From Secundilactobacillus kimchicus JCM 15530 (lineage in GTDB: Bacteria > Bacillota > Bacilli > Lactobacillales > Lactobacillaceae), in contig NZ_AZCX01000003.1 in assembly GCF_001433995.1 (NCBI RefSeq), forward strand, positions 186,001-250,000: 64,000 nt of DNA. Direction: 5' to 3'. Each line of letters opens with the position of its first letter. Position 1 is the stretch's first letter. Under the pieces are notes generated by a model that was not told the DNA's origin, searched no databases, and saw only the letters and a program-made list of their open reading frames with translations. Shown in pieces: positions 379 through 14,389 of the stretch. Both the position numbers and the translations under genes were made by a program.

Positions 379-1086
379 ATGATTAAAGTCGCGATTTGTG
401 ACGATATTCCAGAAATGACTAGTGCTGTCGAGAAAACTCTCGAAGCTTATAACCCCACACTATTTGATATATCAGTCTTCTTCACTGCAGATAAGTTAAT
501 TGCGTCATTGCAGAATATTCAATATGATTTTTTTATTCTTGACATTGAATTGCCTTCCTCATCAGGAATAAATGTTGCAAAAGAGATCCGCAAGCATAAT
601 TTAAATGTACCAATTATTTTTCTAACAAATTTCAGCGAATACATGGAAGACGTTTTTCAAGTTCAAACTTTTGATTATATTCTAAAGCCCGTGACAGAAG
701 AAAAAATGTTTCCGGTCATTAAAAAAGTTATCAAATATTTGGATTTAGACGATGACCATTTTTCTTTCACATATAAGCGAATTGCGTACAATTTAAAATT
801 TACAGATATTATTTGTTTTGAAAAACAAAAACGTATCGTTATTATTCACACAGCACAGACCGACTTTCAGGCGATTATGTCGACGCCCGAACTATTGCAA
901 AAATTAAACGACAATTTTGTACAAGTTCATACCTCCTATATCGTTAATATCAAGTTTATTAAAGAAGTTGGTACGAATTATATCATTTTAACGGAAGACT
1001 CTGGATCAATTGAAATACCCATTAGTCGGAAATTCAAATCACAAGCAAGAGATGCAATTATTATGAAAATGAGGAGTAAACTATGA
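379..1086 (+). CDS. LytTR-family response regulator (AgrA/PlnC-like)
   Basis: A 235-residue cytoplasmic response regulator. The N-terminal receiver domain (about 1-120) has the acidic pair D8/D9, the phosphoacceptor D55 in FFILDIELP and the conserved lysine in DYILKPV. The C-terminal third is a LytTR DNA-binding domain, the type used by AgrA, ComE and PlnC to bind paired direct repeats. It overlaps the kinase gene by 4 bases (ATGA), so the two are co-translated. It faces the peptide/ABC operon convergently, so regulation of that operon is the natural inference. No AgrB/AgrD or double-glycine pheromone gene is visible in the window, so the signal is unknown. Confidence 0.9.
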   Translation: MIKVAICDDIPEMTSAVEKTLEAYNPTLFDISVFFTADKLIASLQNIQYDFFILDIELPSSSGINVAKEIRKHNLNVPIIFLTNFSEYMEDVFQVQTFDYILKPVTEEKMFPVIKKVIKYLDLDDDHFSFTYKRIAYNLKFTDIICFEKQKRIVIIHTAQTDFQAIMSTPELLQKLNDNFVQVHTSYIVNIKFIKEVGTNYIILTEDSGSIEIPISRKFKSQARDAIIMKMRSKL

Positions 1087-2366
1087 CAGATACTATAATC
1101 AGATTGTTGAGTTTTCTTGTTTATGCCTTCTTGCTTAATTTCTTCTTTTCGAGTTGGTCAGTTGCAAATCAGCTATCATTGAAACGCATTTTAGTACTAC
1201 TTGGATTAACAGGTATTGTTTCACTTACCGCATTTTTTGCTTCCAGTAGCATTGAACCATTTATCAATATCATTGTAACGTTAATCGCCATGATAACAAT
1301 TGCTAGTCAGTATGATGTGCCCAATAAAGACATGTTTTTCTGGGTTGTAATTTTGTTAGCCATTAACTTTATTAGTGAGTCAATTTCGCTAGCTATTTTT
1401 GATGCAGTGTTATCCTCACAGTACGATGCACAAAATTTGCTGTTTGTCATCATCACTACTAGTATCACGATGACAATTGAAATACTGATGTTTCTGGCGC
1501 TTAAACTCGTATTTTTCCGAAACCACATTATTCTTGAATCTTTAAACTTACCATCGTTGGTTGCTCTAACCTCTATTCCAGTTGTATCAATCATCGTCTT
1601 ATTTAGTTTTTTACTTGCTAAGATTAACGTCACAATCCATTCTACGTACTTTGTACTACTGGTAGCATTTGGTGTGCTCTATATGAATCTTTGTATACTT
1701 TACTTGTATAGTAGCTTAACGAAACACCTTCGGCAGTTGAATCAAATTACACTGCAAAATAAGTCACTTTCATATGAGTTAAAGTATATTTCTGAGTTAA
1801 AAAAGTCGCAGGAACAACTTTCTGCTATTCGACATGATTTAAAAAATAAATTCATTGTTTTTCGGGGATTACTGGAGCACAATCAGATTGACGAAGCAAA
1901 AAACTATCTACAAGCAACAACAGATCAGCTCAATGTTCGGCAAAAATTCTATACACGTGATATTATCCTAAATTACTTGCTGAACGATAAGCACGAATTG
2001 GCTAATCAAGCTAATATTAAATTTGAGATTAAAGTACTTCTATCTGAGCAAATCAATGTTGATAAAGATATCCTTGCAGTTTTAATTGGTAACTTAATTG
2101 ATAACGCGTTAGAGGCTTCTAAAAGGTTACCAAATCAAAATGAAGCTGAAATCTCTTTGGTCATTAAACAATTCGAAGATAAGCTACTGATCGATATTAA
2201 AAATCACTATAATCCTGGAGAAGTTGTTACACGCCGTAGGCGTAAATATGACGGGCTTGGTACCAGTAATATTAAACGAATTGTTTCTAATTACAATGGT
2301 CTGTATAAACAATGGACGGAGACAAATGTTTATCTGGTAAGTATTATTCTTTTAAATATAAACTAA
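1083..2366 (+). CDS. AgrC-type sensor histidine kinase, GHKL family
   Basis: A 427-residue membrane kinase. Residues 1-210 form six or seven hydrophobic segments, the usual peptide-sensing module of HPK10 kinases. The catalytic part has the H-box with H251 (SAIRHDLKNK), the N-box NLIDNAL at 337-343 and a glycine-rich GLGTSNI near 391. There is no long extracytoplasmic loop, which fits sensing of a small exported peptide. It is translationally coupled to the upstream regulator. The gene ends at a shared bidirectional terminator. The ligand cannot be read from the sequence; the 21-residue peptide at 8624-8689 is one candidate. Confidence 0.9.
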   Translation: MTDTIIRLLSFLVYAFLLNFFFSSWSVANQLSLKRILVLLGLTGIVSLTAFFASSSIEPFINIIVTLIAMITIASQYDVPNKDMFFWVVILLAINFISESISLAIFDAVLSSQYDAQNLLFVIITTSITMTIEILMFLALKLVFFRNHIILESLNLPSLVALTSIPVVSIIVLFSFLLAKINVTIHSTYFVLLVAFGVLYMNLCILYLYSSLTKHLRQLNQITLQNKSLSYELKYISELKKSQEQLSAIRHDLKNKFIVFRGLLEHNQIDEAKNYLQATTDQLNVRQKFYTRDIILNYLLNDKHELANQANIKFEIKVLLSEQINVDKDILAVLIGNLIDNALEASKRLPNQNEAEISLVIKQFEDKLLIDIKNHYNPGEVVTRRRRKYDGLGTSNIKRIVSNYNGLYKQWTETNVYLVSIILLNIN

Positions 2367-2427
2367 AAAGCAACCTAGTATCAGCTACCTATGTTTTCGG
2401 ATAGGCGCCAATTCCTGGTTGCTTTTT
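2365..2427. terminator. Bidirectional terminator
   Basis: AAAAAGCAACC (2365-2375) pairs with GGTTGCTTTTT (2417-2427), with an inner CCTAT/ATAGG hairpin. It separates the convergent kinase gene and CPBP-protease gene and works for both strands. Confidence 0.85.
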
Positions 2428-3308
2428 CACTCGATTGAATGTGTTTTATGATCTATGAATTGAAAATAATATGCAACACACACAGCCAGCAACACAATGG
2501 TTGTGATATAGCTTCCCTCCAACCCAAAGCTGCCACCGCTTAATACTGGATGATCACTGTAGATATTTGTCTTTAAAAAAGATACTCCAAGTCCAATATT
2601 ACTGACTTTACTTCCAAAAATAACACCAAGAGAAAAATTCCAACCGCCGTGTAGACCGGCAACTATCCAGAGGTTTTGTCGTTTATAGAATAACAAGCCA
2701 AGAAAGATCCCCAACAATAGCAACGATAATAAACTCCAAATCGAGAAGTTGCCATTTATCGAATGTACTAGTGCAAAAATCAATGCGCTTATAACAATTG
2801 CGGTCATAGGCTTTAGCTTTGTGGCAAGGCCATTCATTAAGTAGCCTCTAAAAATCACTTCTTCACTTAATCCTTGAATTGCAAAGCCAAATAAATACAG
2901 CAGTACTAAACTCATATCAATATTACTAGTAAAAATAAATTGGACGTGCGCTAAATGACCAATTATTGTTGTAATTAAATAGACACAAACTACGCCCAGC
3001 AACCACCCCCTAAGAACTTCAAGCAAAGTGCCTTCATGGGTAATCCCGAGGGATAGTAACCGTCGTTTTTCAATAAAGCCCGCATAAACCAAAAAAATTA
3101 GAATTGTCAAAATTGTACCAAATAATTCGCCTATTAAAAAAGGTCTACTATTAAGATTAACGGCAAAACCACTTCCTGAGAAGAATGCGTACAAACCTAC
3201 GTATATTAATTGCGAAAGGCTTTGCAGCACGACAACCATTATGATCTGGAAACCAAACCAAGTTTTACGTTCATTAGCCGAAATTTCCATAATATTATTT
3301 CTTAGCAA
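2427..3308 (-). CDS. CPBP-family intramembrane metalloprotease
   Basis: A 293-residue polytopic membrane protein of the CPBP (Abi/Rce1) family. The family motifs are all present: EE149-150 with R154 (EEVIFRGYL), H182 (FALVH) and H220...N224 (GLHGGWN). In lactobacilli these proteins are often found in bacteriocin loci, where some give self-immunity or process peptides. This is the last gene of the minus-strand operon led by the 21-residue peptide. A TTG at 3308 is preceded by GGTGGTGAT at good spacing; the ATG at 3290 is the alternative but has a weak site. Immunity or peptide processing is inferred from context. Confidence 0.85.
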   Translation of the reverse strand: MLRNNIMEISANERKTWFGFQIIMVVVLQSLSQLIYVGLYAFFSGSGFAVNLNSRPFLIGELFGTILTILIFLVYAGFIEKRRLLSLGITHEGTLLEVLRGWLLGVVCVYLITTIIGHLAHVQFIFTSNIDMSLVLLYLFGFAIQGLSEEVIFRGYLMNGLATKLKPMTAIVISALIFALVHSINGNFSIWSLLSLLLLGIFLGLLFYKRQNLWIVAGLHGGWNFSLGVIFGSKVSNIGLGVSFLKTNIYSDHPVLSGGSFGLEGSYITTIVLLAVCVAYYFQFIDHKTHSIE

Positions 3309-3333
3309 GCTGGATCACCACCAATCGCACTGC

Positions 3334-4038
3334 TTAAAGTGCTTCGTTCTTATCAATACTACGCCCCATACTGATACCTGCAATGGTGACTAGCACGATC
3401 ATTGCAATGGCAACAAGCAATGAAAGAAATTCGTAAGACATTAATGTGATTGCAGATAAGTTTGATAGAAATACCACAAAGACAATACTAGCAATGATAC
3501 CTTGTACTGTTGAATTGAGCTTAATACCAATAAAACTGGAAAACAGGATGATTGTCAACGTCAAACAAATGCAAGCAATTGTTGATACCACAACATCAAT
3601 GGTGTGTGGAAGTGGACTGATTTTAATCAAGGGTATAATGACATTCATCATCATGAATACCAGGTTTGATATAAGGAGTCCAACAATCATCGATAAACTT
3701 ATTACTGCTGAGAATGCTTTTGTTTTAGTGTAAAAAAGTTCTTTACGGCTAATGGGCAGTAAATAGGTCTTACTTTTATTCATGCCGACATAATCACGAA
3801 CTAAGTATTGGCTAGCCATCACAGTTCCATAGATTGCTAAGACACACATTGTTCCAGTTGTTGCTAATCCGAGGACAGAGCTGTAGCTCGTTAGCATATT
3901 ATTTTCATCGCTGGCGTCAAAGCGGCCCACCAACGCAAAGAAATATAAAAATAACAGTTGTAAAATTCCGGTTGTCAAGCCTAGAGGCAATAGCATTTTT
4001 TTCATACGTGAAAACTCAAAGTTGAAGTGTTTCATCAT
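3334..4038 (-). CDS. ABC transporter permease (second pair)
   Basis: A 234-residue integral membrane protein with six hydrophobic segments and no recognisable enzyme motif, typical of ABC-2-like permeases paired with a separate ATPase. AGGAGG lies 5 bases before the ATG at 4038 and 8 bases before a second ATG at 4035. It directly follows the ATPase at 4080-4805, so the two should form one transporter. The pair resembles the two-gene exporters and immunity pumps of bacteriocin loci (YydI/YydJ, LanFEG). Substrate is unknown; export of, or protection from, the locus peptide is inferred. Confidence 0.8.
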   Translation of the reverse strand: MMKHFNFEFSRMKKMLLPLGLTTGILQLLFLYFFALVGRFDASDENNMLTSYSSVLGLATTGTMCVLAIYGTVMASQYLVRDYVGMNKSKTYLLPISRKELFYTKTKAFSAVISLSMIVGLLISNLVFMMMNVIIPLIKISPLPHTIDVVVSTIACICLTLTIILFSSFIGIKLNSTVQGIIASIVFVVFLSNLSAITLMSYEFLSLLVAIAMIVLVTIAGISMGRSIDKNEAL

Positions 4039-4079
4039 CAAGACCTCCTCGATCTAATCGCTAATTCGATTTGTTCATT

Positions 4080-4805
4080 TTAATTTAACGATTGGACGCT
4101 ATTAATAAAGCTATGATAAAAACCCATTAAGCCGTCTGAAAATTCTTCATTAATTTCTGCAATCGTTTTTCGAGTACTTGTTTGCCCCTTGGCCATCACG
4201 ATAGCATCCGTAATCACATCATTTAGATCAGCGAACGAATGACTAGTGATAATAACGATTTTATCTTGAGAGAGTTGTTCGATGAGATTTTTTGTTAAAA
4301 CAACTCCGTCAGGATCCAAGCCGTTAAACGGTTCATCAAGGATCAAAATTTCAGGTGTGTGAGAGATAGCTACCGCCAACAGCAAACGTTGACGCATACC
4401 CAGTGATAGACTACCGATCATTTGTTTCTCAGATACATCTAGTCCCACGTTTTCTAAAATGGTTGACCATTTTTTGGGGGCAGTCAGTCCAAAAAAGTAA
4501 TAGTGTTCTTCAAGTAGTTCCTTAATAGATAAATCAAATATACTATCAGATTGGGCAAACACGGACCCGATTTTTTTGAGGAAGTCTGTACGTGTTTCTT
4601 GGTTTAGAATTAAATCATCAATCCGAATATCACCAGCGTTTGGAACTAGTAGGCCACAAACACACTTGAGTAATGTGGTTTTACCTGCACCATTAGGGCC
4701 GACTAGCCCGTAAATTCCATTGTTCTTAAAAATTAAATTATCGATCCGTAAAATGTTTCTGCCATCAATTGACTTAGTGACATGATCAATCTTTAGTTGT
4801 GTCAA
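4080..4805 (-). CDS. ABC transporter ATP-binding protein (second pair)
   Basis: A 241-residue ATPase with Walker A GPNGAGKTT (about 36-44), signature SLSLGMRQR, Walker B EILILDEP and an H-loop histidine (TSHSF). The signature reads LSLGM rather than the usual LSGGQ, as seen in several peptide-exporter ATPases. Start is a TTG 9 bases after GGGGG. The gene lies 7 bases after the preceding permease and 41 bases before its own partner permease. It energises the second transporter of the locus. Confidence 0.9.
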   Translation of the reverse strand: MTQLKIDHVTKSIDGRNILRIDNLIFKNNGIYGLVGPNGAGKTTLLKCVCGLLVPNAGDIRIDDLILNQETRTDFLKKIGSVFAQSDSIFDLSIKELLEEHYYFFGLTAPKKWSTILENVGLDVSEKQMIGSLSLGMRQRLLLAVAISHTPEILILDEPFNGLDPDGVVLTKNLIEQLSQDKIVIITSHSFADLNDVITDAIVMAKGQTSTRKTIAEINEEFSDGLMGFYHSFINSVQSLN

Positions 4806-4812
4806 AATTTAA

Positions 4813-5583
4813 TTACCCCCTTTTGGTTAGCGCAGATAATGATAAAGTGAAAGCGATCAGTGCCCACAATATCAGAACGATTATATTAAAAAATGATACC
4901 GTGCCTGAATGAAATAAAGTTGCTCGTATTAAATCACTTGTTGGAACAAATGGGAGCCAGTTATAAACTGATGCCAGCCAATCCGGAATACGACTGGCCG
5001 GATAAGTGATTGGTGAAAATAGCAAACCACCAATCATAATAACTTGGGTTGCGAGCGCCATAACGTTCGCTGACAGCCAATAGGCCAAGGTAAACCCGAT
5101 CAAAATCATCGTTATCTGTGCTAGCAAGATAATGACAATGCTTAGTGGTGAAATATATAGGTGGATTTTGAATCTAATTACTGCAGCAAGGCATGACATA
5201 ATAACACCCGGCAAAGATGCTAAACTCCAGATAATCACATCTGCCAGTATGATACTGGTTCTATCAACTGGTAGTGTCTTTTGATACGCAACAATGCCAT
5301 CCTGTTTGGCTGTACCGATAATTTGGGCAGCTAGAACACAACCAACTGCAATAATACCGATTGTAATAGCACCAGATGATAGGTACAGCGAATCTTGATG
5401 TGTCATATTTGGCAGTAATAACGCTAATCCATACACAATAGCAAGCGCCAGTACAGCTTGGGTAACACTAAATGTCGGTAACAGCACTTTATGCCTAACC
5501 AAACTCCACCAGACGAGTCCACCAAATTTACGTGTTTTTGTCTTCAAAGAATGATCAACTATCTGCTCACTATTTATCTCCAT
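4813..5583 (-). CDS. ABC-2 type permease (first pair)
   Basis: A 256-residue membrane protein with six hydrophobic segments of the ABC-2 type, including the conserved run after residue 190 (LLFSPITYP) typical of drug and peptide efflux permeases. The start overlaps the end of the ATPase gene by 14 bases, and its ribosome-binding site GGAGG lies inside that gene, which indicates translational coupling. With the ATPase at 5570-6493 it makes the first ABC transporter, probably an exporter of the locus product. Confidence 0.85.
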   Translation of the reverse strand: MEINSEQIVDHSLKTKTRKFGGLVWWSLVRHKVLLPTFSVTQAVLALAIVYGLALLLPNMTHQDSLYLSSGAITIGIIAVGCVLAAQIIGTAKQDGIVAYQKTLPVDRTSIILADVIIWSLASLPGVIMSCLAAVIRFKIHLYISPLSIVIILLAQITMILIGFTLAYWLSANVMALATQVIMIGGLLFSPITYPASRIPDWLASVYNWLPFVPTSDLIRATLFHSGTVSFFNIIVLILWALIAFTLSLSALTKRG

Positions 5584-6493
5584 CAGTTAAGCCTCCGTAC
5601 ATTACATCAAGCGAGTTGGGTGCAAGGTTATACGTTACAATTTCAGACAGATCAATACGCTGTTGTAACCAATTAATCGCTGGTATTATTTGGGAGTGGG
5701 TTAAAATAATTTCATATTCCAAAGCACTATCCTGCTTGACCTTGATCGATTTAGGAAAATCGTCAACTGATAAGGGACGTTTAGTTGTAAGCGTTAATAC
5801 ATTTTCAGACAAGCGGTTGGACGACGCTAAATTGGTCGACTCATCCTTAATTAAATGGCCATGATCTAATAGCAGATAACGATCCGCATATTGATCAACC
5901 TCAAGTAGATTATGTGTAACGACTATCACAATATGTCCAGATTCAGCAAGTTGACCGAGATACTGCCAAATCAGTTTACGCCTGACCGGATCAACATCAT
6001 TAGTTGGTTCGTCAAACAAGAGAATCGGTGCTGGTGCTACAACGGTCATCGCAAACGATGTTAAACGTTGCAACCCCCCAGATAGTTTTTCACCTGTTGT
6101 GTTTGCCCAATCCATAATTTTTAAAGCATTTAACACTTTGTCCAATTCTGATTTGCGATCACCATCAAAATGTCCCCGAATTCTAGACACCGCTTCAATC
6201 GATTGACGGAGGGTGACGCCCGTCAGGGGCGCATGTAGCTGAGGCATCATAGAAATCATGCTTCTAGCAACCGATGGTTCTTGAATAAACGAATGGCCAG
6301 CAAATGTAACCGATCCCTTATCAGGTTTAGTAATTCCCATAATTTGATTGAGTAATGTGGTTTTACCTGCACCATTATGACCCGTCAAGGCGGTGATAAC
6401 ACCCGGTGAAAACTGTGTTGATATATTGTCATTAGCGGTTACTTGACCATGATTAAATGTTTTAGTAATTGAATGAATACTTAAATTTGACAT
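5570..6493 (-). CDS. ABC transporter ATP-binding protein (first pair)
   Basis: A 307-residue ATPase. Walker A is GHNGAGKTT, the signature is LSGGLQ, Walker B is ILLFDEPTNDVD, followed by the H-loop VTHN. About 90 residues extend beyond the nucleotide-binding domain, as in CcmA/BcrA-type drug and peptide exporters. The ATG at 6493 is chosen because AGGAGG lies 12 bases upstream; an in-frame TTG at 6505 abuts that site and is too close. It couples to the permease that overlaps its 3' end. Confidence 0.9.
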   Translation of the reverse strand: MSNLSIHSITKTFNHGQVTANDNISTQFSPGVITALTGHNGAGKTTLLNQIMGITKPDKGSVTFAGHSFIQEPSVARSMISMMPQLHAPLTGVTLRQSIEAVSRIRGHFDGDRKSELDKVLNALKIMDWANTTGEKLSGGLQRLTSFAMTVVAPAPILLFDEPTNDVDPVRRKLIWQYLGQLAESGHIVIVVTHNLLEVDQYADRYLLLDHGHLIKDESTNLASSNRLSENVLTLTTKRPLSVDDFPKSIKVKQDSALEYEIILTHSQIIPAINWLQQRIDLSEIVTYNLAPNSLDVMYGGLTDGDK

Positions 6494-6520
6494 TAGATTG
6501 ATCAACCTCCTTCGCGGTTA

Positions 6521-7396
6521 CTAACGAATCAGCCGATAAATACGCATAATCAAGGGTAGCAACCAACCTACAATAATTAGAATCGACATCATTCTACCTA
6601 AAATATTGATTAGCGTAATTTCCGCTGTTCGCTTATTTCTCAAATCAGCAAGCATTGAAGGATTATCTGAGATCATTGCAATCACTAGTTGTCCATCTGT
6701 CCGCTTGTGAATCCTAAGCTGCCATAGAATTCTTACCCATAAAATAGCGCAAGCAACTGGTAAAAACCAAGCATCACTGTATAACCACAGCCCTGATAGT
6801 ACAGCTAATTCAACCAGGTCAAGTACAACACCTGCCGAAACTGCAGCAGTTCTACCTAACCGTGACCATACCCAAACGTGTGATAGAGAAACCTTCGCTA
6901 CTGCCGTCTTCGCAGAGATGTGTAAGCCCGCTTTTGAAGGAGTTAATTGCCCAAACAGTAAATGCATTAATTCATGAGCTATCGTCGTTACTATTGAAAA
7001 TAAAACAATAAAAATAATGTTTTCCAGTAAACCTATGTGTTCCGCAATAAGCAAGTTCCCGGTAGGGATTCCTCTAATTAAGGTTGTATAACCAACATAA
7101 AGTGCTGATATAATACCTATTATTAGAAATGTAGTTCTAGCGATTATCCAACCAGTAGATTTACTCTCAACGATGGGTCTCGGTACGGGCTCATCAGAAT
7201 CTTTTAGAAAGCCCATATCTTTTAGGGTCGTCATAAAGTGTTCATTGTTTGAAAATGAGTCAACATCTCCGTGCAATAGTTTTGTCGATATTTTTTCATC
7301 TACAATGATTGGTTTTGCTTTGCTGGTTAATAGAATCCAGTTGTTGTCTCTCAGCCTTCGTCCTAAGATTGGATTTAATTCTGGTTGATCAGTCAT
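6521..7396 (-). CDS. M50-like membrane metalloprotease (YydH-like)
   Basis: A 291-residue protein. Residues 1-65 look like a small PqqD/RRE-like winged-helix region (NPILGRRLRDNNWILL...). Membrane segments follow, with the zinc motif HELMH at 141-145 and a downstream TDG (233-235) that can supply the third metal ligand, as in site-2/M50 proteases. YydH of the Bacillus epipeptide locus is a similar membrane protease beside an ABC pair. The ATG at 7396 overlaps the end of the E1-like gene by 8 bases (ATGACTGA); a longer upstream reading frame is a shadow. Likely role: cutting the modified peptide at the membrane, or immunity. Function is inferred. Confidence 0.8.
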   Translation of the reverse strand: MTDQPELNPILGRRLRDNNWILLTSKAKPIIVDEKISTKLLHGDVDSFSNNEHFMTTLKDMGFLKDSDEPVPRPIVESKSTGWIIARTTFLIIGIISALYVGYTTLIRGIPTGNLLIAEHIGLLENIIFIVLFSIVTTIAHELMHLLFGQLTPSKAGLHISAKTAVAKVSLSHVWVWSRLGRTAAVSAGVVLDLVELAVLSGLWLYSDAWFLPVACAILWVRILWQLRIHKRTDGQLVIAMISDNPSMLADLRNKRTAEITLINILGRMMSILIIVGWLLPLIMRIYRLIR

Positions 7397-8531
7397 ACTT
7401 GATGCCCTTGTTTTGATAGTATTGGAAAATCTGCCAGTCTTCAGCACTACCATTACCACATGTCGGGCATTCATCTTCAAAACGGGGCCACGTATGATGG
7501 GTGAAAGACGACCCATCCTCATAATTAATTTCAAATTGTGTACCCAGACTTTGCGGTTTGGCATACCGTGTTAAAACTCTAATTGCTTCATCAACAATTG
7601 AAGATACTAACTGAAACATGCCCGGCCCGTACGCAATTGAAGGCGGATTGAAATTAACTTCGCGGAAACCCACAAATTGATCTAAAAATTTAGGATCATG
7701 TTTACTAAAATTCAAATTTAAACAGTCAAAGCATCCAGTGACATATGGAATCACAGTATAGACACGTCCACGGCTGACCTGTGAAGCACCAAATACACAA
7801 GGTAAATCAGCCGCCACAATTGCCTTGTTAACAACTCGATGAATGATAAACGGCGGCTCATCGATTGCGCAAATTACTAAGTCAACCCCATCTGTGTACT
7901 GTAATATATCTTCTGGGCTTTGAATTTTTTGATTGTGTACTTCAATTTCAACATCTGAGTTCATTTCGTTAATGGCTTTTTTAGCTACTTCGGTTTTCAG
8001 TTTACCGACATCAGCTTCACGAAACAGAAATTGGCGACCTAGATTACCCATTTCCACACGATCATAATCGACAATAATGATCTTTTTTGGCCCCAATCCA
8101 GCTAATAATGTTAATATGTTGGATCCACCACCGCCAAGTCCAAGTAAGAGAATCGTACTTTCATGTATCTTCCTTTGTACCTCAAAACGATTTCCATTCA
8201 TACCGACAAAGCGGCTAAAGTAACTGATATTTGGGAGGTAGCGTTCTTCATCAGTTTCATCAGGCAATGTCTCTTCAAGGACATTATTTTCATCTAATAA
8301 GTCAATACCGGATATAATGTCATCAACTGTTAATTCTGGAAATTTTTTTTGCATTTCTACTACAATATCACTAACTTTTTGTCCATTTAACTTACTAGCT
8401 AGACTGTAGAGTTGTCCTTCTGGATCCCCAAATTCAACGGTGATTCCTAACTGGGCACCAATCCTAAAATAGGTTTTATCAAGACGATATAGGGGATAAA
8501 TCGGCTTGATTCGTGGTCTGTTGTATTTCAT
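7389..8531 (-). CDS. ThiF/E1-like adenylating enzyme, RiPP maturase candidate
   Basis: A 380-residue enzyme. Residues 1-100 form a small helical/winged region that could be a RiPP recognition element. The E1-like Rossmann domain follows, with nucleotide loop GLGGGGSN (131-138), VDYDRVE (154-160) and NLGRQ (163-167). Zinc-binding cysteine pairs are C267/C270 (CFDC) and C355/C358 (CPTC). E1-like enzymes adenylate peptide C-termini or side chains, as in MccB (microcin C), PaaA (pantocin A) and azoline cyclodehydratases. Preceded by AGGAGGAG. It lies directly downstream of the 21-residue peptide gene and its terminator, so that peptide is the expected substrate. The product chemistry is not predictable by eye. 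Confidence 0.88.
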   Translation of the reverse strand: MKYNRPRIKPIYPLYRLDKTYFRIGAQLGITVEFGDPEGQLYSLASKLNGQKVSDIVVEMQKKFPELTVDDIISGIDLLDENNVLEETLPDETDEERYLPNISYFSRFVGMNGNRFEVQRKIHESTILLLGLGGGGSNILTLLAGLGPKKIIIVDYDRVEMGNLGRQFLFREADVGKLKTEVAKKAINEMNSDVEIEVHNQKIQSPEDILQYTDGVDLVICAIDEPPFIIHRVVNKAIVAADLPCVFGASQVSRGRVYTVIPYVTGCFDCLNLNFSKHDPKFLDQFVGFREVNFNPPSIAYGPGMFQLVSSIVDEAIRVLTRYAKPQSLGTQFEINYEDGSSFTHHTWPRFEDECPTCGNGSAEDWQIFQYYQNKGIKYD

Positions 8532-8557
8532 ATGCTCCTCCTAGTATATTTTGCGTT

Positions 8558-8604
8558 AAAAAAAGTTGGCGAGATCATCTTTAAGTTAAAGATAACCTCG
8601 CCAA
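8558..8604 (-). terminator. Attenuating terminator between peptide gene and maturase
   Basis: On the minus strand TTGGCGAG (8604-8597) pairs with CTCGCCAA (8573-8566), with further pairing inside (ATCTTTAA/TTAAAGAT), followed by seven T. It lies between the peptide gene and the E1-like gene. Partial read-through here would give more precursor than enzyme, a common arrangement in RiPP loci. Confidence 0.9.
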
Positions 8605-8623
8605 TGATTAGCACTAGTTGTAA

Positions 8624-8689
8624 TTAGATAACAATCCACCATGCTGTTGCGTCAACTTTGTCTGCTTTACGTACTGTAATGTTCTTCAT
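8624..8689 (-). CDS. 21-residue precursor peptide candidate
   Basis: A 21-codon gene starting MKNITVRKAD and ending TAWWIVI before TAA. AAAGGAG lies 9 bases before the ATG, an excellent ribosome-binding site, and a terminator follows the stop. The N-terminal half is charged (K, R, D) like a short leader; the C-terminal six or seven residues are hydrophobic, with paired tryptophans and a C-terminal isoleucine. There is no double-glycine leader, cysteine or signal peptide. It is the first gene of an operon with an E1-like enzyme, membrane protease and two ABC transporters. Likely a RiPP precursor or peptide signal. I do not recognise the peptide itself. Confidence 0.75.
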   Translation of the reverse strand: MKNITVRKADKVDATAWWIVI

Positions 8690-8860
8690 GACCGCCAACT
8701 CCTTTCACGCAAAACTGTCATCAAGCTTCACGCCCTCTTATCCAAGTATTTTGATTAATACCTATGAACACGTCATTGGTATATATTTATGATATGTCTG
8801 AATGTTTTTATTTTGGCTATAACGTCACAATTGACCGTTTTAATGTAACGAATGACGCAA
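8690..8860 (-). promoter_or_regulatory. Putative LytTR-controlled promoter of the peptide operon
   Basis: On the minus strand the related elements GCGTCATT (8858-8851) and CGGTCAATT (8837-8829) have their GTCA cores exactly 21 bp apart, the spacing of LytTR direct repeats in AgrA/PlnC-type promoters. AT-rich sequence suitable for a -10 region follows about 40 bases downstream (around 8780-8800). The match to known half-site consensus is loose. Confidence 0.45.
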
Positions 8861-11772: not shown

Positions 11773-12090
11773 GCGTCGTTAATAAATAAGGACTCGATAC
11801 TAGCTTAAAACATTTGAATTTTTCTCGCCGTTTAGTACTCAACCTGCATATCAGTCCTAAACAATCCCGAGACTGCTGATAAAAATAATCAATAGATTAA
11901 ACATTATTAATCAGCGATAAACCATTGCTAAAAGTGTCTATAGATACCCTCATTAAAAAATAGTTAACACCGTTCATTTTTAACCTAGTATACAATCTGT
12001 CTATTTTGTCGCACAAATAATTGCATATGGGTTATAATACTAAGTGCTATGTCTGTTTGATTCATTAACTTGTTTTAAGGAGTAACAACT
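11773..12090. other. Gene-free spacer with promoter for the TetR gene
   Basis: No coding frame seen. AT-rich. A TATACAAT-like -10 lies near 11990-11997, and AAGGAG precedes the TetR start at 12091. No operator palindrome stands out. Confidence 0.4.
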
Positions 12091-12639
12091 ATGCAAGATC
12101 TTCGTGTTATCAAAACCAAAATGACTATTGAAAATGCGTTTGCAGAGTTGATTTTAGAAAAGGGATTGGATGCCGTTAAAATTGTTGATGTGACAAATCG
12201 GGCGAAAGTCGATCGTCACACATTCTATCGTCACTACAAGAATAAAAACGATTTAATGGACCACATGATTGCCGACTTTTTTGGGGAATTTGCCGAGCTA
12301 ATCGAAAAGCAACCGCCATTCTCAATCGGATATCAAAGTAGTGATAAATTAACCCAATTTCTAATCAATGACTTGGCGCCTTTTATCTCTAGTAAGCAAC
12401 ATATTTTAAGGGTTGCGCAACAAGAATTATCAGCCACATTTTCTAAAGTATCGCGCCAAAATATTCGCGATACGATTCATCAAAAGCTAGATGCTGACAC
12501 ACCCGAAATCGAAGTGTACATCATCATTGGCATTTGCACGGCCCTGATGCAATACGTGGTCGATCACAAGACCACCCCAACTAAGGAGGCCGTTCTTAAA
12601 ACCCTGAACGACCTGAATGCCTTTACAACTCTTGGTTAA
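12091..12639 (+). CDS. TetR/AcrR-family regulator
   Basis: A 182-residue DNA-binding protein. The helix-turn-helix is at about 25-50, in sequence VKIVDVTNRAKVDRHTFYRHYKNKNDL, which is typical of the family; the C-terminal ligand/dimer domain is variable. The start has AAGGAG 9 bases upstream. It lies 127 bases before an ABC-F gene on the same strand, which may be its target. Ligand unknown. Confidence 0.85.
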   Translation: MQDLRVIKTKMTIENAFAELILEKGLDAVKIVDVTNRAKVDRHTFYRHYKNKNDLMDHMIADFFGEFAELIEKQPPFSIGYQSSDKLTQFLINDLAPFISSKQHILRVAQQELSATFSKVSRQNIRDTIHQKLDADTPEIEVYIIIGICTALMQYVVDHKTTPTKEAVLKTLNDLNAFTTLG

Positions 12640-12766
12640 CGTGACAGATGTCGAAATCAGTCGCTCAATTTTCGTGCGCCGTGTGAAAACTTGTTGCACC
12701 TGCGCTTATTTGTTAAGATTGTAGTCATCATTGTTCACCACGCACACGAAATCGAGAGGTAATAAA

Positions 12767-14389
12767 TTGTTAACTGTAAGCAATGTTTCAATGAGCTTTT
12801 CTGATCGAAAGCTATACGACGACGTTAACCTGAAGTTCACACCAGGTAACTGTTACGGCATCATCGGCGCAAATGGCGCTGGTAAATCCACTTTTCTGAA
12901 GATTTTAGAGGGCCAATTAACGCCAACGACCGGTTCCGTTACAATGGGACCAAACGAGCGAATGAGTAGCCTCAAACAAGATCATTTTGCCTATGATGAT
13001 CAAACTGTCATGAACACTGTCTTAATGGGTTACCAACACCTATACGATGTGATGACGGAAAAAGATGCCCTGTACGCTAAAGCCGACTTCTCCGATGAAG
13101 ACGGGTTAAAGGCTGCTGAATTAGAGGGCGAATTTGCTGAAATGGACGGCTGGAACGCCGAAAGTGACGCCAGTCAGTTGCTCCAATCCATGGGCATCGA
13201 CGAGAAAATGCACGACCTCTTCATGAGAGATCTCGTCGAAAACGACAAGATCAAGGTGCTGCTTGCTCAAGCCTTATTTGGCCAACCAGATGTTTTACTG
13301 TTAGACGAACCGACCAACGGGTTGGACCCGTTGACCATTAATTGGCTGGAGGACTTCCTTGCTGATTACGCAAACACCGTTTTAGTTGTCAGCCATGACC
13401 GTCACTTCTTAAATGCGGTCTGCACTCACATGTGTGATGTCGATTTTGGTAAAATTGAACTCTTTGTTGGGAACTACGACTTCTGGCAACAAAGTTCCGA
13501 ACTCGCACAGAAGTTACGCAACCAATCGAACGCTAAAAAAGAAGAACAAATTAAACAGTTGCAAGAATTCATCGCGCGGTTCTCAGCCAACGCTTCCAAG
13601 TCTAAGCAAGCGACTTCCCGCAAGAAACAACTGGATAAAATCACGTTGGATGATATCAAACCAAGTTCCCGGAAGTATCCGTTCATTCAATTTAAACCCG
13701 AACGCGAGCTGGGAAATGATTTACTCCGAGTTGAAAACGTCAGCTTGACCATTGACGGCCAAAAAGTGCTCGATAACGTCAGCTTTATTCTGCGTCCTGG
13801 CGACAAAGCCGCCATTGTGTCGCGGTCTGATGTCACAGCCAGTTACTTGATGCAAATCATTGCTGGCGCATTGGAACCCGATAGCGGGACGGTGACGTGG
13901 GGCGTCACGACGAACCGAGCTTACATGCCAAAGGATTTGAACCCTGAGTTCGACGACCCGAAACTCAACATTTTGGAATGGCTCCGCCAGTTTGCCAGCA
14001 AGGAAGAAAGCGATAATACCTTCCTGCGGGGGTTCTTAGGCCAAATGCTGTTTAAAGGTGACGAGGTTCTCAAACAAGTCAACGTCTTATCCGGGGGCGA
14101 AAAGGTTCGGAGCTACCTGTCTAAGTTGATGCTAAGTAAAGCCAACGTCATGATTTTGGACGATCCAACCAACCATTTAGACCTGGAAAGCATCACAAGT
14201 TTAAACGATGCCCTCATCGCCTTTACCGGCTCTCTGGTCTTCACCAGCCACGATCGTCAATTTATCCAAACCATCGCTAACCACATCATCGAAGTGGGCC
14301 CTAAGGGCGTGGTTGACCGTGCCGACACCTCTTACGACGAATTCATCGCTCACGAGGCCGCACAGGCTCAAGTTGAAAAACTTTATTAA
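12767..14389 (+). CDS. ABC-F family ATPase (YkpA/YbiT-like)
   Basis: A 540-residue soluble protein with two ABC nucleotide-binding domains and no membrane segment. Walker A GANGAGKST is near residue 35, Walker B LLLDEPTNGLD near 180, and a second LSGGEKVR with MILDDPTNHLD in the C-terminal half. ABC-F proteins act on ribosomes. The N-terminal MLTVSNVSMSFSDRKLYDDVN and the length match the YkpA/YbiT group rather than antibiotic-resistance ABC-Fs. The second Walker A (VSRSDVTAS) departs from consensus, so that site may be degenerate. TTG 12767 is chosen because GAGAGG precedes it at good spacing. Confidence 0.88.
   Translation: MLTVSNVSMSFSDRKLYDDVNLKFTPGNCYGIIGANGAGKSTFLKILEGQLTPTTGSVTMGPNERMSSLKQDHFAYDDQTVMNTVLMGYQHLYDVMTEKDALYAKADFSDEDGLKAAELEGEFAEMDGWNAESDASQLLQSMGIDEKMHDLFMRDLVENDKIKVLLAQALFGQPDVLLLDEPTNGLDPLTINWLEDFLADYANTVLVVSHDRHFLNAVCTHMCDVDFGKIELFVGNYDFWQQSSELAQKLRNQSNAKKEEQIKQLQEFIARFSANASKSKQATSRKKQLDKITLDDIKPSSRKYPFIQFKPERELGNDLLRVENVSLTIDGQKVLDNVSFILRPGDKAAIVSRSDVTASYLMQIIAGALEPDSGTVTWGVTTNRAYMPKDLNPEFDDPKLNILEWLRQFASKEESDNTFLRGFLGQMLFKGDEVLKQVNVLSGGEKVRSYLSKLMLSKANVMILDDPTNHLDLESITSLNDALIAFTGSLVFTSHDRQFIQTIANHIIEVGPKGVVDRADTSYDEFIAHEAAQAQVEKLY

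Follow-up and report, generated by a model that had tools for sequence, protein, structure and literature searches.

Introduction

E1-like (ThiF-like) enzymes act on precursor peptides in several described systems, of which enterofaecin is the closest to the locus reported here. In Enterococcus faecalis FDAARGOS_397, the ThiF-like enzyme EnfB adenylates and cyclises EnfA, a 21-residue peptide that carries a (V/I)RKA motif and ends in WWIVI; the cluster also encodes four transporter proteins and regulators, and a quorum-sensing role was suggested for it (Wang et al. 2024, as reviewed in PMC12250964). In the Ind cluster of Streptococcus pneumoniae, nuclear magnetic resonance (NMR) shows the indole nitrogen of W6 joined to the C-terminal I9 by IndF; a peptidase and a transporter belong to the cluster, and the available account names no kinase or regulator (PMC12150305). 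MccB of microcin C and PaaA of pantocin A are likewise E1-like, peptide-activating enzymes, with other precursor ends and products (PMC12250964). Here we analyse an operon of Secundilactobacillus kimchicus JCM 15530, located in a 64-kb stretch (the window; contig NZ_AZCX01000003.1, positions 186,001 to 250,000) of the 2.59-Mb genome, in which a 21-codon gene precedes an E1-like enzyme gene. By comparison with the published description, the operon is almost certainly of the enterofaecin type.

An enterofaecin-type operon

On the minus strand, positions 2427-8689 carry the precursor gene, a hairpin, and genes for an E1/ThiF-like enzyme, an M50-like protein, two ATP-binding cassette (ABC) ATPase/permease pairs and a CPBP protease, spaced by overlaps or short gaps. 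A LytTR response regulator and an AgrC-like histidine kinase are encoded convergently to this operon (379-2366, plus strand), and all of the listed frames are open. The first-pass annotation, made from the letters alone, had placed the locus at 2427-8860; the parts within that extent were confirmed, but it left out the kinase/regulator pair, which is the best evidence for a pheromone role. Like the enterofaecin cluster in its published description, the locus combines a precursor of about 21 residues ending in WWIVI, an (V/I)RKA motif and a ThiF-like enzyme, and the four transporter proteins and regulators of that cluster correspond to the two ABC pairs, kinase and regulator here. It differs in its host family, and in an M50-like protein, a CPBP protease and promoter repeats, which the available part of the description does not mention. 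The annotation's labels "undescribed" and "unlike the families named" must therefore be withdrawn: the enterofaecin family is already described (PMC12250964, section 5), and the window operon is another member.

The precursor gene (8624..8689, minus strand), which encodes MKNITVRKADKVDATAWWIVI, starts with ATG at 8689 and its stop codon ends at 8624, with AAAGGAG nine bases before the ATG, as expected of the well-signalled gene that the annotation had proposed. The peptide carries TVRKA, ends in WWIVI and contains no Cys. Directly downstream, a hairpin with a 17-pair stem is followed by T's (arms 8566-8604, minus strand); the annotation's terminator is thus real as a structure and probably acts as a partial terminator between the peptide and enzyme genes. 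A hairpin followed by T's begins within 25 bases of the peptide stop in 9 of 12 loci (that of L105 is long and imperfect), and in L098, L099 and L102 the best such hairpin lies further from the stop.

The locus had also been read as one for a ribosomally synthesised and post-translationally modified peptide (RiPP), possibly a pheromone, with the E1-like enzyme as the modifier, and we looked for homologous enzymes beside which the peptide was absent or not conserved. The reading survived, since every one of the 16 loci read at length has a short VR-containing peptide ahead of the enzyme, although the core of the L096 peptide is incomplete. A scan of genome contigs gave three enzyme orthologues with 76-89% identity, in Enterococcus durans, Lentilactobacillus fungorum and Lactobacillus sp. 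UCMA15818 (for the Lactobacillus sequence, the match spans residues 1-243), and the peptide is kept beside orthologous enzymes in other genera, which argues that the 21-codon gene is more than a chance frame. In a set of seven longer-class peptides, taken without L006 (which has one codon more) and without the 20-residue class, dN was below dS in all 14 pairs with finite dS; dS was not computable in the other 7 of 21 pairs, and the narrowest pair had dN 0.10 against dS 0.12. A small open reading frame (ORF) read by eye immediately upstream of the peptide gene was dropped, as L006 has no start codon there.

The E1-like enzyme

The enzyme (7389..8531, minus strand; 380 aa) matches PF00899 with an E value of 2.4e-54, and its two CxxC pairs, C267/C270 and C355/C358, are invariant among the relatives' enzymes, in agreement with the ThiF/E1-like enzyme with two such pairs that had been noted at first. 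Its profile matches in the PDB include MccB, the best, over residues 66-361 (E 1.2e-33) and PaaA over residues 5-339. The N-terminal domain of PaaA is a RiPP recognition element (PMC12250964), and the window enzyme may have one too: the PaaA alignment starts at residue 5, and a structure model of low confidence (mean pLDDT 47.7) has strands followed by helices at residues 7-76.

The MccB match could also favour a product like microcin C, a nucleotide-peptide for which an MccB-type reaction would be responsible. That reaction sits at a C-terminal Asn (PMC12250964), with which none of 12 EnfA-type peptides ends, and EnfB, the described enzyme of the type, cyclises or amidates with one ATP (PMC12250964). 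Membership in the microcin C family was rejected on the missing Asn, and we find a product of this kind barely credible.

Residues R166, K179 and D224 of the window enzyme correspond to Arg167, Lys180 and Asp225 of EnfB, the numbering being one lower. These columns are invariant in all 18 rows of our enzyme alignment, Ind and Bacilli types included, and therefore do not discriminate the enterofaecin type. The alignment covers the enzymes of 7 of the 16 loci and of four Bacilli-class loci; L006, L096, L097, L098, L100, L101, L102, L103 and L104 lie outside it.

Ring chemistry

The counts of peptide residues given here and the promoter-gap counts below omit the near-copies L100, L101 and L104; the residue counts also omit L096, whose core is incomplete and which was retained for the promoter site. 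EnfA-type peptides were chosen by their VR leader motif, not by Trp. Trp stands at n-3, the fourth position from the C terminus, in all 12 distinct complete peptides, and the last residue is Ile (7), Val (3) or Phe (2). Since IndF joins a Trp placed in this way to a C-terminal Ile, enterofaecins may be indolylamides closed between Trp18 and Ile21. In distinct IndA-type peptides, encoded next to E1-like genes that are more distant, Trp is likewise at n-3 (6 of 6), a count that is partly circular because the Trp-bearing ends served to select these peptides among the candidate ORFs.

The enzymes allow a similar comparison. That of L047, which stands beside a peptide ending in NWYFI, has exactly the IndF residues Q167, K179, Y228, K256 and T298, and the window enzyme has Q167, K179, F228, R256 and S298 in these columns. 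The Lys of IndF at column 256 was proposed to help activate the indole (PMC12150305). This column is basic in both groups, with Arg in 7 of 7 Enf rows and Lys (six) or Arg (one) in 7 of 7 Ind rows, three of which are near-copies; of the four Bacilli rows, the three for which a precursor was identified, in each case free of Trp, hold Thr, Thr and Gln, and the fourth, L052, whose precursor could not be identified, holds Arg. We take the pattern as no more than a hint. The window operon and the Ind cluster both have Trp at n-3, an aliphatic C terminus and an E1-like enzyme with matching ATP-site residues, but the Ind precursor ends in NWYFI instead of WWIVI, its cluster has an M16 peptidase and its enzymes form a separate clade. 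Membership of the window operon in the Ind group was rejected on the precursor end; in addition, no M16 peptidase matched among the nine scanned window proteins, and the enzyme falls outside the IndF clade.

Several points weigh against an indolylamide. For enterofaecin, an imide that links the nitrogen of Ile19 to the C terminus was reported from mass spectrometry (MS) and NMR, with Trp17 crucial (PMC12250964). At column 256 the window enzyme has Arg, a poorer base, and at column 228 Phe instead of Tyr. In the enzyme tree, which leaves out Bac_L056 and two very short reads (VEGR_L090 and AGGH_L087), Enf and Ind each form a clade of their own (support 100/99 and 100/100, respectively). The two join a Bacilli clade with weak support (84/91) and without a resolved order among the three, so that the Trp spacing common to Enf and Ind may be either an ancestral trait or the result of convergence. 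The n-3 Trp could also serve substrate binding and not ring closure.

The same cassette could accordingly make the reported macrocyclic imide, in which the backbone nitrogen of Ile19 attacks the adenylated C terminus, as the in vitro work with MS and NMR concluded (PMC12250964). An imide at a backbone nitrogen would, however, leave the n-3 Trp side chain of 12 out of 12 peptides unexplained, while the residue that supplies the nitrogen varies (n-2 is Ile in eight, Val in two and Gly in two). The position of Trp17, n-4, is Trp in seven peptides, Ser in three, Arg in one and Leu in one. The later paper states that the enterofaecin structure requires further NMR (PMC12150305). We consider the imide fairly unlikely for this family and prefer the Trp18-Ile21 indolylamide, a proposal for enterofaecin that we did not find among the listed matches of our literature searches.

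Two further observations concern other E1-like genes. At L058, eight short tandem precursor-like ORFs (MK[IL]QAKKVE..RTT...) lie upstream of an EnfB-like gene with 34% identity, and a second enzyme match (L071) adjoins it in the same genome; this multi-precursor relative has a core without Trp. One genome (G975) holds three E1-like matches, one of the EnfB type, one of a type with a peptide ending in VEGR and one beside an NWYFI peptide.

A candidate autoinduction circuit

LytTR proteins bind paired repeats at a 21-bp period. A two-repeat site of this type, GTTAC ... GTGAC with a 21-bp period, lies upstream of the peptide gene (8824..8849, minus strand), where it fits the search pattern without mismatch and is the only match within the window. 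A search of the whole genome with a close pattern, up to 3 mismatches being allowed, likewise gave this site alone; looser sites such as those of other loci would escape that search. In 15 of the 16 loci, a pair of the form T[TGA]AC-N17-T[TGA]AC lies no more than 250 bases upstream of the peptide, and the sole locus without one, L098, is also the only one without a kinase and regulator in the stretch read. All 12 distinct loci in which the kinase and regulator are present have the repeats at a gap of 17 bases, no other gap between 8 and 29 bases occurs in more than 2 of the 12, and the locus without the kinase and regulator has no pair at gap 17. Dinucleotide shuffles match the pattern in 8-45 of 500 per locus. 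From this conservation and uniqueness, we infer a dedicated autoinduction loop acting through one promoter.

The kinase (1083..2366, plus strand; 427 aa) matches PF14501 and PF14689, has a hydrophobic N-terminal half and carries RHDLKN, and the regulator (379..1086, plus strand; 235 aa) matches PF00072 and PF04397. The NCBIfam models of AgrC and AgrA match the two only far below their cut-offs, so the AgrC and LytTR likeness is one of architecture, not of membership, and "AgrC-like" is used here in that sense. The resemblance to Agr extends to a small peptide signal and, as predicted here, autoinduction; the difference is that no AgrB matched among the nine scanned proteins, the peptide has no Cys, and ring closure would fall to the E1-like enzyme.

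Against such a circuit stand the locus L098, where peptide and enzyme are present but neither a kinase nor a regulator occurs within the 18 kb read, the fact that the repeat pattern was defined after inspection of the sequences, and the literature searched, in which we found no sensing experiment.

Accessory genes and two peptide classes

The M50-like membrane protein (6521..7396, minus strand; 291 aa) has hydrophobic segments and an HELMH motif in which H141, E142, M144 and H145 are invariant (3 rows). No Pfam or NCBIfam model matched it and its only two PDB matches were at chance level, so that the label M50 depends on the motif, and the protease named at first stands on motif and hydropathy without a family match. 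ABC ATPase 1 (5570..6505, minus strand; 311 aa; PF00005) and permease 1 (4813..5583, minus strand; 256 aa; PF01061) are matched in 16 of 16 loci, the permease in L036 with its own permease as the query. ABC ATPase 2 (4080..4805, minus strand; 241 aa) matches PF00005, and permease 2 (3334..4041, minus strand; 235 aa) is hydrophobic with no family match at E 0.01. The two ATPase/permease pairs proposed earlier thus hold for both ATPases and the first permease, and on hydropathy for the second. The CPBP (Rce1-like) membrane protease (2427..3308, minus strand; 293 aa from the listed TTG start) was rightly recognised (PF02517). The Yyd (epipeptide) system, another early comparison, has a radical SAM modifying enzyme, and no radical SAM protein matched among the nine scanned window proteins.

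The accessory genes follow the length of the peptide. In the class of 21-22 residues (nine loci, L096 being assigned by its leader), the M50-like protein is matched in 9/9 (partially in L006 and L098), ATPase 2 in 9/9 (partially in L004), permease 2 in 8/9 and CPBP in 5/9 (on the opposite strand in L095). None of the seven loci of the 20-residue class has a match to any of the four beside the cluster; weak ATPase matches lie several kb away in L099 and L102. Both classes share the peptide, the E1-like enzyme and ABC pair 1 and, almost without exception (15/16), also the kinase and regulator, which together therefore form the core. In the L004 stretch of Enterococcus durans (11796-13389), ATPase 2 is shortened, permease 2 and the CPBP protease are absent, and the kinase gene comes directly next.

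This division bears on whether the product is mainly a bacteriocin, with ABC pair 2 and CPBP giving self-immunity and the two-component pair sensing stress or a different cue. CPBP proteins can function in bacteriocin immunity, and the NCBIfam model nearest to ATPase 2 is the lantibiotic-protection ATPase TIGR03740 (142 bits, below the cut-off of 310). The 20-residue class, however, keeps the kinase and regulator with no match to ABC pair 2 or CPBP beside the cluster in any of seven loci, which places such immunity genes outside the core. We regard a product that is mainly a bacteriocin as unlikely, and prefer a signal, noting that one product can be both and that the two are thus not fully exclusive.

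Distribution and origin

In whole-genome searches (the counts include the own genome where it is in the sample), the family to which S. kimchicus belongs gave 3 matching genomes out of 350 at E 1e-80, and 14 genomes of the same genus were listed without a match. The order sample gave 14 out of 395 at a threshold of E 1e-30, and six of these scored above 500 bits. At E 1e-60, matches came from 21 of 398 genomes of the class sample, and all but this genome and G071 carry more distant enzymes. The genus of G071, which we take to be Streptococcus, had matches in 21 of 284 genomes (eight of the EnfB type), the family of G419 in 3 of 105 and the family of G246 in 2 of 29. A Niallia taxi megaplasmid (L105; NZ_CP102590.1, 1136610-1161740) carries a cassette with the peptide MKKVTVRRATKVEATTWWIII and an enzyme at 66%, in a stretch for which the plasmid collection lists no gene.

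The G+C content of the cassette (379-8860) is 37.2%, against 44.8-49.5% in 91 overlapping stretches of the same size to its right. This low value, together with the 14 same-genus genomes without a strong match, makes a recent arrival likely; the patchy distribution fits a transferred cassette, and its composition and occurrence indicate that it was probably acquired horizontally. A phage origin was rejected, as phage records gave six weak matches, none with at least 80% query coverage, and none of 110 candidate viral-contig stretches was confirmed.

Loss seems to be frequent, with damaged copies in L006 (the E1-like gene has lost its end and the M50-like gene its start), L097, L103 and L104 (split enzyme matches) and L096 (incomplete peptide core). 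By analogy with these visibly damaged relatives, the window could hold a decayed island with the short gene out of use. Its open frames, mismatch-free promoter site and good ribosome-binding site make this very improbable.

Discussion

We propose that a probably horizontally acquired enterofaecin-type cassette makes a Trp18-Ile21 indolylamide that works in an autoinducing circuit, and give this mechanism as a whole a little less than an even chance. The hairpin behind the precursor gene would cause the peptide to be made in excess. The N-terminal domain of the EnfB-like enzyme would bind the VRKA leader, and the enzyme would adenylate the C-terminal carboxylate of Ile21 with ATP; the indole nitrogen of Trp18 could then accept this carboxylate in its activated form, which would close an indolylamide ring of four residues, W-I-V-I. 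Trimming of the leader would probably fall to the M50-like protein and export to ABC pair 1; further export or self-protection might come from ABC pair 2 together with the CPBP protein. Outside the cell, the AgrC-like kinase would sense the product, and the LytTR regulator would activate the peptide promoter through the repeats at 8824-8849. What the sequences show is the gene content, the relatives, the conservation of the peptide, and the conservation and uniqueness of the promoter site; the ring chemistry at this locus, the roles of the proteases and transporters, and the sensing of the product are what we infer.

A wider proposal, which we find possible though on balance doubtful, is that the enterofaecin ring was mis-assigned, that Enf and Ind share one chemistry, and that the four-residue acyl-indole ring is the signal for the AgrC-like kinase, with a labile bond that could serve as a timer. 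The conservation of Trp at n-3, the two-repeat LytTR-type site and the link of the M50-like protein and ATPase 2 to the 21-22-residue class were not found in print.

The reported structure of the family is called unsettled by a later paper (PMC12150305), and a demonstrated function was not found in the literature searched; the ring assignment and the one-promoter signalling loop are worth following. If the wider proposal is true, an E1 enzyme would here take the place of AgrB in building an autoinducing peptide. If both the indolylamide ring and the product-driven promoter hold, lactic acid bacteria at large and some bacilli would have acyl-indole pheromones that E1-like enzymes make.

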